This document shows positions 48,134 through 51,151 of a DNA stretch of 64,000 nucleotides, piece by piece. The DNA lies in NCBI GenBank assembly GCA_014879565.1, contig JACSRW010000029.1, forward strand, positions 124,001 through 188,000. The letters run 5' to 3'. Position numbers and translations under genes: made by a program. Origin of the DNA: Chitinophagaceae bacterium. GTDB lineage: Bacteria > Bacteroidota > Bacteroidia > Chitinophagales > Chitinophagaceae. Each line of letters begins with the position of its first letter. The stretch's first letter is position 1. Under the pieces are notes generated by a model. It was not told where the DNA came from, ran no database searches, and saw only the letters and a program-made list of their open reading frames with translations.

Positions 48134-51100
48134 ATGGAATACCAGTTCAGGCAGATTGAATCAAAATGGCAGGAAGAATGGAAGAAATCAGGTGCCTACA
48201 AAGTGTCTGATGACTTGAGCAAACCCAAATGTTTTGTACTGGATATGTTTCCCTATCCCAGTGGCGCCGGTCTGCATGTGGGGCATCCCCTGGGTTATAT
48301 CGCATCGGATATTTACAGCCGGTACAAAAGACTGAAAGGATTCAATGTCCTGCACCCGATGGGCTTCGACAGCTTTGGCCTCCCGGCAGAGCAATATGCC
48401 CTGGATACCGGTCAGCATCCTGCCGTAACTACCAAAAAGAATATTGAGACTTTTAAATCGCAGCTGAATAATATTGGCTTTTGTTACGACTGGGAACGGG
48501 AAGTGCAGACCAGTGATCCTGCGTATTACAAATGGACCCAGTGGATCTTTCTGCAGTTATTCGGCTCCTTTTTTAACCGGCAGACCGGCAAAGCTGAGCC
48601 GGTGGAAAACCTGGTTGCGGCTTTTGAACAAGAGGGAAATGCCGGCCATCCCTGCCCGGGGGATAACCGTATTCTTTTTACGGCAGCCGAATGGGAAACA
48701 TTTGATGAAAAACAAAAAGCGGATATCCTGATGGAATACCGCCTGGCCTATTGCGGATACGGGGAAGTGAACTGGTGTGAAGCCCTGGGTACCGTGCTGG
48801 CCAATGATGAAGTGGTTAACGGAGTGAGTGAGCGGGGCGGACACCCGGTGGTGAAAAAGAAATTACGCCAATGGTACCTGCGGATTACAGAATATGCAGA
48901 CCGCCTGCTGGAAGGACTGGACCGGATTGAGTTCAGCGATGCCATGAAGGAAATGCAGACCAACTGGATCGGAAAATCTTCGGGAGCTGAGATAGATTTT
49001 GAAGTGAAAAAGCCCGTCCGGAATACAGGCGCTGATGAAGTGGAAAGAGCCACCACCCTCCGCGTATATACGACCCGGCCCGATACTATTTTTGGCGTGG
49101 ATTTTATGGTTGTTGCCCCGGAACTGGATATCGTGGAAGAACTGAAATCAGATGAACAGGCAGCCGCGGTGGATGAATACCTGGCCTATGTAAAAAGCCG
49201 CAGTGAAAGGGAACGTATGGCAGAAAAGAAAATCAGCGGAGTGTTTACCGGCTCTTATGCCATCAATCCTTTTGATGGCCGGGAGATTCCCATCTGGATT
49301 TCGGAATATGTACTGGCCGGTTATGGCACGGGAGCCATTATGGCCGTACCCTGCGGAGACGAACGCGATCACAAGTTTGCCCGGCATTTTAATATTCCAA
49401 TCACCAATATTATCGGATCCCATTATAACGGAGAAGAAGCCAATCCCACCAAAGACGCGATTCTTGAAAATTCAGGGTTTCTCAACGGACTGCTGATGAA
49501 GGAGGCTATTGAAGTGGCGATCGGTGCCATTGAGGAAAAAAGAATCGGGGTGCGGAAAAAGAATTACAAAATGCGGGATGCCGCTTTCAGCCGCCAGCGT
49601 TACTGGGGCGAACCCTTCCCGATAGTCTGGAAAAACGGGATCGCGTACCCGTTTGCGGAAAATGAATTACCCCTGGAGCTTCCGCATGTGGACAGCTATA
49701 AACCCGGGCCCGACGGGGAAGGGCCGCTGGCGAATATCAAAGACTGGACCGGCCGGCAACTGGAGACCAATACCATGCCCGGTTATGCCGGTTCCAGCTG
49801 GTATTTCCTGCGCTATATGGATCCGAAAAACGACCAGGAATTCTGCAGCCGTAAATTATCCGATTACTGGAACCAGGTGGATCTCTATATCGGTGGTACT
49901 GAACATGCCGTAGGGCACCTGCTCTACAGCCGGATGTGGACCAAGGTACTCTTTGATCTCGGCCATATCGGTTACGATGAACCCTATAAGAAACTGGTGA
50001 ACCAGGGAATGATACAGGGTGTAAGCGCTTTTGCGAATTTTATTGGGTTCAACTTTGGAGTAAATATGTTGGGGGATATTACTGAAGATCAAAAACAACT
50101 TGTCAAGGAGTTAAAGGAAAAATATGTTGCGTTAAAAAACGTCTTTTTATCAGATGATTTGATGGATGTGATAAGAAAATCTTATTTGGAACCTAAAACA
50201 GATGAAGAAAAAGAGCATATGACTCTTCAAAATAAGTTATACTCATTATTACTGAAACCAGTTTACGAAGATATTGAAGTAATGGGTTTGAAGGATATAG
50301 TAAGGGTTGCTCCATTAAATAATTATTATAGAGTTCATATTCCTATTGAGTATGTAAATCACAAGGATGAGTTAGATGAAGAAAGACTTAAATCTGAGGT
50401 TTCTCGATTTGAGGGTTCCATTTTTATAGCAAAGAATGAAAAGTTTATTTGCTCAAGAGAGGTGGAAAAAATGTCCAAGTCCAAGTATAATGTTGAGAAT
50501 CCAGATGTGATTATCGAAAAATACGGCGCCGACACTTTCCGCATGTATGAAATGTTCCTGGGCCCCGTAGAACTCAGCAAGCCCTGGGATACTAAGGGGA
50601 TTGAAGGGGTGCACCGGTTCCTGAAAAAATTCTGGCGGCTTTTTGCCGATGAAACAAAGGGCTGGCTGGTTACTGATGCCGAACCAACGGCAGAAGAACT
50701 GAAAGTCCTGCACCGTACCATTAAAAAAATTGAAGACGATACAGAACGGTTCAGTTTTAATACGGCGGTCAGCGGATTTATGATTGCCACCAATGAACTG
50801 AGCGATCTGAAATGTCATAAAAGGGCCATCCTGGAACCGCTGCTGATCCTGCTTACCCCTTATGCCCCGCATATCTGCGCTGAACTCTGGCAACAGCTTG
50901 GCCATTCAGACAGTATACTGGATGCGCCCTACCCGGTATTTGATGCCCGGCATGTGGCCGAGAGCAGTAAGGAATACCCGGTTTCGGTCAATGGTAAACT
51001 GCGTACCACGATGACGATATCCCTGGATGCTGCCCAGGCCGAGGTGGAAGCCCTGGTACTGGCCAATGAAGTGGTGCAGAAATGGCTGGAGGGCAAAACG

Positions 51101-51151
51101 CCGAAAAAAATCATTTTTGTCAGGGGTAAAATGGTGAATGTGGTGGTCTGA
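48134..51151 (+). CDS. leuS: Leucine-tRNA ligase with an atypical low-GC inserted/replaced segment
   Basis: LeuRS charges tRNA-Leu. The 1005-residue protein has the HIGH motif as HVGHP at 48-52, the editing domain (about 230-450, with YTTRPDTIFGVDFMV and YGTGAIMAVPCGDERD), and KMSKS at 779-783, followed by the anticodon-binding domain. It is longer than the roughly 920-950 residues I expect for the family. The excess lies before KMSKS: from about residue 634 to 794 (50035-50515) the DNA falls to about 30% GC against about 50% in the flanks, codon use changes to A/T-rich codons, and about 75 residues (around DQKQLVKELKEKYVALKNVF to EVMGLKDIVRV) have no counterpart that I know in other Bacteroidota LeuRS. 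The frame is intact and catalytic motifs are present, so the enzyme is probably functional. Confidence 0.96.
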   Translation: MEYQFRQIESKWQEEWKKSGAYKVSDDLSKPKCFVLDMFPYPSGAGLHVGHPLGYIASDIYSRYKRLKGFNVLHPMGFDSFGLPAEQYALDTGQHPAVTTKKNIETFKSQLNNIGFCYDWEREVQTSDPAYYKWTQWIFLQLFGSFFNRQTGKAEPVENLVAAFEQEGNAGHPCPGDNRILFTAAEWETFDEKQKADILMEYRLAYCGYGEVNWCEALGTVLANDEVVNGVSERGGHPVVKKKLRQWYLRITEYADRLLEGLDRIEFSDAMKEMQTNWIGKSSGAEIDFEVKKPVRNTGADEVERATTLRVYTTRPDTIFGVDFMVVAPELDIVEELKSDEQAAAVDEYLAYVKSRSERERMAEKKISGVFTGSYAINPFDGREIPIWISEYVLAGYGTGAIMAVPCGDERDHKFARHFNIPITNIIGSHYNGEEANPTKDAILENSGFLNGLLMKEAIEVAIGAIEEKRIGVRKKNYKMRDAAFSRQRYWGEPFPIVWKNGIAYPFAENELPLELPHVDSYKPGPDGEGPLANIKDWTGRQLETNTMPGYAGSSWYFLRYMDPKNDQEFCSRKLSDYWNQVDLYIGGTEHAVGHLLYSRMWTKVLFDLGHIGYDEPYKKLVNQGMIQGVSAFANFIGFNFGVNMLGDITEDQKQLVKELKEKYVALKNVFLSDDLMDVIRKSYLEPKTDEEKEHMTLQNKLYSLLLKPVYEDIEVMGLKDIVRVAPLNNYYRVHIPIEYVNHKDELDEERLKSEVSRFEGSIFIAKNEKFICSREVEKMSKSKYNVENPDVIIEKYGADTFRMYEMFLGPVELSKPWDTKGIEGVHRFLKKFWRLFADETKGWLVTDAEPTAEELKVLHRTIKKIEDDTERFSFNTAVSGFMIATNELSDLKCHKRAILEPLLILLTPYAPHICAELWQQLGHSDSILDAPYPVFDARHVAESSKEYPVSVNGKLRTTMTISLDAAQAEVEALVLANEVVQKWLEGKTPKKIIFVRGKMVNVVV

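Follow-up and report, generated by a model that had tools for sequence, protein, structure and literature searches.

What is the AT-rich block that interrupts the gene for leucyl-tRNA synthetase (LeuRS), leuS, in a Chitinophagaceae bacterium, and how did it come to lie beside the catalytic loop of an essential housekeeping enzyme? The locus is part of the window analysed here, a stretch of 64,000 nucleotides (assembly GCA_014879565.1, contig JACSRW010000029.1, positions 124,001 to 188,000). The block is the leucine-specific domain (LSD) of leuS, and the explanation that we favor, with a probability of about one half, is that it represents one allele of an exchangeable, hypervariable LSD, whose variants are replaced between relatives, kept diverse by selection, and selected by an agent directed at LeuRS. 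The three parts of this explanation differ in strength: replacement of LSD alleles is strongly supported by the comparisons below and very probably took place, diversifying selection on them is probable, and a LeuRS-directed inhibitor or toxin as the selecting agent is a tentative proposal. The features concerned, all on the forward strand, are as follows.

48134..51151, forward strand: leuS, bacterial LeuRS of 1005 amino acids (TIGR00396, E 3.6e-272).
50000..50020, forward strand: conserved NQGMIQG motif directly before the LSD, recognized from the sequence.
50021..50467, forward strand: LSD, 149 amino acids (residues 630-778), 31.3% GC, long form, assigned to a rare allele class common to L036/G114.
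50033..50359, forward strand: most distinctive part of the window allele, according to genome searches.
50468..50482, forward strand: intact KMSKS catalytic loop (residues 779-783), recognized from the sequence.
50483..50530, forward strand: tail of the divergent tract past KMSKS, with amino acid identity to near relatives of 60-80% before it returns to 100%, and GC of 33-43% per 30 bases.

The initial annotation had described a low-GC block inside leuS with sharp edges on both sides, and its hand counts were exact: G+C accounts for 108 of 360 bases (30.0%) at 50101-50460, compared with 31 of 60 at 49861-49920 and 32 of 60 at 50521-50580, and only one place in the 64 kb (49980-50532) contains 360-base windows with GC of 32% or less. 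By codon position, GC is 57/38/57 upstream of the LSD, 45/21/28 within it, and 59/38/57 downstream; because it falls at all three positions, both amino acid make-up and codon choice change in the window LSD. The sliding plot suggested as a check agrees, giving a GC content at third codon positions (GC3) of 57% upstream, 28% in the LSD, and 57% downstream, and among the 14 window genes of at least 400 codons a sliding 110-codon scan identifies leuS as the largest internal GC3 drop (z score 6.3; next, 3.6). The reading frame is open throughout 48134-51151, low-GC block included, as had been stated. Compared with three other loci (L009, L010, and L011), the last ten codons ahead of 50021 show an amino acid identity of 100%; identity drops to 20-33% over the ten that follow and recovers to 100% at about 50531. 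The divergent tract runs from 50021 to about 50530; the location first given was right, and the edges are slightly wider than the 50035-50515 assigned.

In all other respects, the enzyme is unremarkable. It is a bacterial LeuRS (905 bits against TIGR00396, with a curated cut-off of 548) with editing and anticodon domains (PF13603, PF08264), its K779, M780, S781, and K782 are invariant in the LeuRS alignment A1, and its whole-protein fold matches are 2bte, 7nu8, and 4aq7. An insertion between a GMIQG-type motif and KMSKS, by which an LSD is recognized, occupies 50021-50467, where the structure model gives a strand-helix insert. As in the T. thermophilus, N. gonorrhoeae, and E. coli structures, this LSD is placed directly before KMSKS; unlike them, it has 149 amino acids, which bears out the enlarged domain of the initial annotation, is replaced between near relatives, and has no PDB sequence match (none at E up to 10 with residues 634-777 as the query). 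The genome (3.43 Mb, 44 contigs) contains one full-length LeuRS match, the four others being short matches to other synthetases, and gene conversion from a second leuS copy was rejected as a source, there being no such copy. The window leuS is an ordinary enzyme with an ordinary LSD position, and its mode of variation is what stands out.

The comparison set holds one genome per species. The LSD was read in 189 of 204 loci (the 15 missed comprise 4 other synthetases, 3 truncated leuS genes, and 8 loci outside the motif rule), giving 172 distinct LeuRS, nearly all from Chitinophagaceae, of which 163 have full flanks. For the genus, the loci comprise the 29 best relatives in addition to the window's own copy, the 60 family stretches used were drawn from the 157 genomes (of 195) that matched the segment, and the 80 loci from named genomes are the best matches to the window, one search pattern having been drawn from the LSD itself; because loci were chosen as best matches to the window, the long and short counts that follow are not prevalences. 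A side observation on these records is that the leuS of Niabella hibiscisoli (L180) stops after the LSD region, possibly through a sequencing frameshift.

LSD lengths among the 172 distinct LeuRS are bimodal, with 87 short forms (71-88 amino acids) and 85 long forms (102-160 amino acids). Long forms show a greater drop in GC3 between upstream flank and LSD than short ones (Mann-Whitney p 6e-7), and 58 of the 80 long LSDs with full flanks have a GC3 of 15-34% in hosts of 22-69%. GC at first, second, and third codon positions falls in long LSDs, and among the low-GC3 alleles LSD GC3 tracks host GC3 (slope 0.26, r 0.59). In the window and the 80 named loci, which together supply 206 genes of at least 400 codons, the 26 largest internal GC3 drops are all in leuS, 25 of them at the LSD, and a z score above 4.2 is reached by 25 of 78 leuS genes and none of 128 others. 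The rule behind this count misses a few leuS genes, such as L182, and the gene at L133:4809-7898, scored in another count as a non-leuS gene above 4.2, is leuS. Beyond the family, 43 loci were taken, of which 35 could be read (22 of the same class and 13 of other classes of the phylum group), and two more came from the same order, namely L214, with an LSD of 104 amino acids and host-like GC3, and L228, with one of 99. Among the same-class genomes outside the family, 10 of 24 have an LSD of at least 100 amino acids, with a GC3 drop of at least 10 points in 7 of these 10; the 14 with shorter LSDs show drops of at most 16, and the 13 genomes of other classes have LSDs of 4-88 amino acids. Even an AT-rich genome outside the family (L231) has an LSD GC3 of 10% against 28% in the flank. 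In these sequences, the Bacteroidia LSD is of two kinds, as is best seen in Chitinophagaceae: a short form, which is conserved, and a long form with many alleles, most of them AT-rich. On a quick flank tree of 163 LeuRS, built with no mixture model, at least 33 changes between long and short are counted, whereas 300 shuffles average 54.9 with a lowest value of 46; the state is therefore partly inherited but changes often.

That long alleles are replaced, as opposed to slowly diverging, is strongly supported by comparisons between near relatives. The three nearest relatives with full flanks (82-86% identical to the window) carry other LSDs, bearing out the recombination proposed initially, and when the genus is searched with the window LeuRS, most relatives match as two pieces broken at residues 634-669 (L006, L007, and L008 match in one). 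As a control, valyl-tRNA synthetase (ValRS) was searched in the same 42 genomes, and all 30 loci retained match without a break. The initial annotation had also considered an ancestral feature of the clade; relatives do share the long form and its low GC, but the segment itself is not shared and does not follow the rest of LeuRS. The contrast between the two forms was evaluated on the LSD middle part (residue 9 to 45 from its end, similarity scored by BLASTP at E 0.01). Where flanks are at least 90% identical, all 19 short-short pairs are similar over this part, versus 1 of 9 long-long pairs; the corresponding values are 20 of 22 versus 2 of 16 at 85-90% and 42 of 45 versus 18 of 79 at 80-85%. 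Among long rows whose nearest flank neighbor is at least 80% identical, 9 of 60 share a detectable middle part with that neighbor. The clearest case at the DNA level is L141/L178, a pair collinear over 9.2 kb, with identities of 89.8% over 3.1 kb and 86.2% over 5.6 kb on either side of the LSD, yet unalignable from the LSD start (a break within 2 bases) to about 64 bases past its end. In L006/L007, L125/L126, L128/L185, and L082/L171, the DNA alignment breaks over the LSD middle and the LSD ends are kept; FVYR-like and HVDVN-like ends occur in 66 of the 85 long alleles under a loose rule.

Rare allele classes recur in different genera, against the relationship of the flanks, and such LSD alleles are shared between genera. 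They differ entirely from the alleles with FVYR-like and HVDVN-like ends. Class II comprises the window allele (VSAFANF) and that of L036/G114 (NSAFINM), which belongs to another genus; a search of 394 family genomes with 50033..50359 recovered it in two, the window's own and one other. Class III comprises L141, L168, and L306, and its query matched 1 of 388 genomes (L306). Class IV comprises L148 and L161, from genera g36 and g71, the two strong matches among 384 genomes, to which 12 weak ones are added. L178 (95% identical to L141 in the flanks) and L146 (91% to L168) carry ordinary long alleles, unlike the class III carriers, and the LSD alleles of L031 and L013 each have no counterpart at the loci compared. 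In genomes of the class, 1 other of 395 matched 50033..50359, weakly (G257, 28% identity, E 9e-4); this was set aside as chance, the match lying on another contig than the G257 leuS (L234, short LSD).

Despite their divergence, the long inserts look folded and ordered. AlphaFold2 models gave a mean pLDDT of 83.7 for the window LeuRS (65-89 by blocks of ten in the LSD, from an alignment with one near homologue, L129, of the window allele) and 81.4 for that of L126 (LSD blocks 55-89). The window LSD is predicted to contain a strand (628-643), a helix (651-665), a strand (670-672), helices (674-685 and 689-716), a strand (723-736), and a helix (749-755), and that of L126 strands (616-625 and 642-644), helices (646-655 and 663-674), a strand (691-695), and a helix (707-713); with secondary structure alone compared, the order is the same save one extra window helix, despite different sequences. 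A hydrophobic-Ser motif of the middle strand (VFLS, IFIS) is present in 68 of the 85 long alleles, versus 18 by shuffling.

How could such variation be useful? According to a study of LeuRS and agrocin 84 immunity (PMC5059758), the domain in E. coli LeuRS moves between states, buttresses the KMSKS loop, guides tRNA, matters for tRNA binding, and tells apart tRNA-Leu isoacceptors, although it is not absolutely required for aminoacylation. The same text describes AgnB2, an immunity LeuRS lacking the domain; adding the domain to an AgnB2 triple mutant visibly raised sensitivity to TM84, with a half-maximal inhibitory concentration of 1.8 uM versus 61.3 uM for the wild type, a difference to which the three mutations and the domain both contribute (PMC5059758). 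On our proposal, alleles would be exchanged by homologous recombination through conserved flanks, or kept as an old trans-species polymorphism, and diversifying or frequency-dependent selection would hold their diversity. The agent would target LeuRS at the entrance to its synthetic site, near the KMSKS loop, and might be a small molecule that inhibits in a tRNA-dependent manner, like agrocin 84, a protein toxin, or a phage inhibitor. If the domain supports the KMSKS loop and steers tRNA here as in E. coli, a different LSD could lower inhibitor fit while the enzyme goes on charging tRNA-Leu; on the account in PMC5059758, a swap may change the surface seen by the agent at the tRNA entry with catalysis kept. 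Tentatively, then, the LSD may be the surface of contact in a prolonged arms race, alleles from a shared pool being swapped to evade toxins, phage inhibitors, or Trojan-horse antibiotics directed at LeuRS. The escape from an inhibitor suggested in the initial annotation is judged a sensible reading, with an agent that we infer.

Restriction enzymes, which swap their target-recognition domains, and other polymorphic modules are comparable cases. The likeness lies in a conserved frame with an exchangeable hypervariable module, and the difference in that the frame here is an essential housekeeping enzyme and no recognized target is known. The literature search found no title or abstract opening describing a hypervariable or exchanged LSD. 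AgnB2 (5ah5) resembles the present case as a LeuRS altered at the LSD, with the LSD bearing on inhibitor sensitivity; it is plasmid-encoded, lacks the LSD, and carries KQSKS (PMC5059758), whereas the window genome has a single LeuRS with KMSKS and an enlarged LSD without plasmid match, and so does not belong to the AgnB2 type.

Among other explanations, neutral drift survives best, and it is nonetheless unlikely. On this account, the LSD tip tolerates any insertion and diverges fast under AT mutation bias and weak codon selection, with neither exchange nor agent, which would suit a domain that aminoacylation does not absolutely need (PMC5059758), the fall of GC at every codon position, and the tracking of host GC3. 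Gradual change would not, however, yield unalignable LSDs between relatives whose DNA is 86-90% identical on either side or the same rare class in different genera, and a fold-like pattern is kept in long LSDs while short ones are conserved (19 of 19 pairs). Somewhat less probable still is that the LSD follows changes in tRNA-Leu or tunes isoacceptor charging, as its part in tRNA binding and isoacceptor discrimination in E. coli might suggest (PMC5059758). The TAG, TAA, and GAG tRNA-Leu are identical in G013 and G033 even though the LSDs are 31% identical, and because three of five isoacceptors are identical in this one genome pair, co-evolution is less likely as the cause of LSD change; for the CAA isoacceptor, 102 of 106 bases align between the two, flanks included, and CAG was seen in G013 only, among 18 stretches examined.

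A single recent event in which a low-GC relative supplied part of leuS, as originally proposed, would account for the sharp edges, the GC step, and nearest relatives without the window segment, but it is improbable. The same pattern in dozens of genomes speaks against a single local event; as for a low-GC donor, many AT-rich long LSDs have no common donor, low GC accompanies most long LSDs even in AT-rich genomes, and the nearest allele found, that of G114/L036, is just 48% identical over the segment (flanks 71%). A mobile element, intein-like insert, or phage-derived domain, to which an in-frame, variable, AT-rich insert might point, is very improbable: the LSD is replaced, not added to, the window LSD was not found in the viral contigs, plasmids, or phages searched, and eight alleles gave no Pfam match above cut-off, and hence no splicing or endonuclease domain. 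PHROG and PADLOC matches were weak, including one of the window LSD to the homing endonuclease phrog_12131 (E 0.058, chance level), and the best, which both concern L128, were judged chance: phrog_15066 (E 0.0013), a family of unknown function, and PDLC00803 (E 0.0059). Assembly or binning artefact, which the predominance of metagenome-assembled genomes (MAGs) might invite, is scarcely credible given a contig reaching at least 188 kb, an intact reading frame, divergence at one place in many genomes, and long AT-rich LSDs in the isolates Segetibacter koreensis DSM 18137 (L147, 139 amino acids, GC3 33 to 24) and Hydrotalea sandarakina DSM 23241 (L153, 160 amino acids, GC3 28 to 18).

Several observations nevertheless weigh against an exchangeable LSD under selection by a LeuRS-directed agent. 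Within a class, LSD identity (43-66% in class III, 42-48% in class II) is below that of the flanks (71-78%), and sharing may therefore reflect old transfer or long-kept polymorphism, not recent transfer; no donor was identified, and G114/L036 is too distant to be a recent one for the window allele. Replacement is not universal: the DNA of L146/L196 aligns through the LSD in one piece, though the LSD proteins are 32% identical, and a Puia-type group (L138, L155, L157, L159, L163, L164, and L177) keeps one alignable long allele with host-like GC3, so that not every long LSD turns over and this group is a natural contrast to hypervariable LSDs. As to composition, 22 of the 80 long alleles have a GC3 of at least 36%, near the host value, and the strongest GC3 drop lies outside the LSD in 26 of 78 leuS genes. 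In the genus control, a z score above 4 was reached by 2 of 30 ValRS versus 11 of 27 LeuRS, and one of these two ValRS genes (L258, from G017) contains a divergent low-GC3 stretch at codons ~723-833 of 887, before the C-terminal arm (z 6.7); given this control, segment replacement in synthetases may go beyond LeuRS. Most genomes with names are MAGs. With respect to the agent, giving wild-type AgnB2 the domain left its sensitivity unchanged, and the LeuRS of H. pylori is inhibited despite having no LSD (PMC5059758); no antagonist of LeuRS was found, and none was sought by experiment.

A separate observation concerns ValRS itself, of which two types may occur in the genus: those of G001, G003, G013, G014, G033, and G034 are 71-72% identical to the window-genome ValRS, most genus members listed being at 77-88%, and for G013 and G033 the N-terminal part of LeuRS is at 82-84%.

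Aminoacyl-tRNA synthetases are usually treated as slow, conserved housekeeping enzymes. If the LSD is indeed an exchangeable, hypervariable module, its replacement beside the catalytic loop would show that translation in a major class of bacteria is under a selective pressure hidden so far, would suggest that inhibitors or toxins directed at LeuRS await discovery, and would make the natural LSD variants a ready set for probing domain function.
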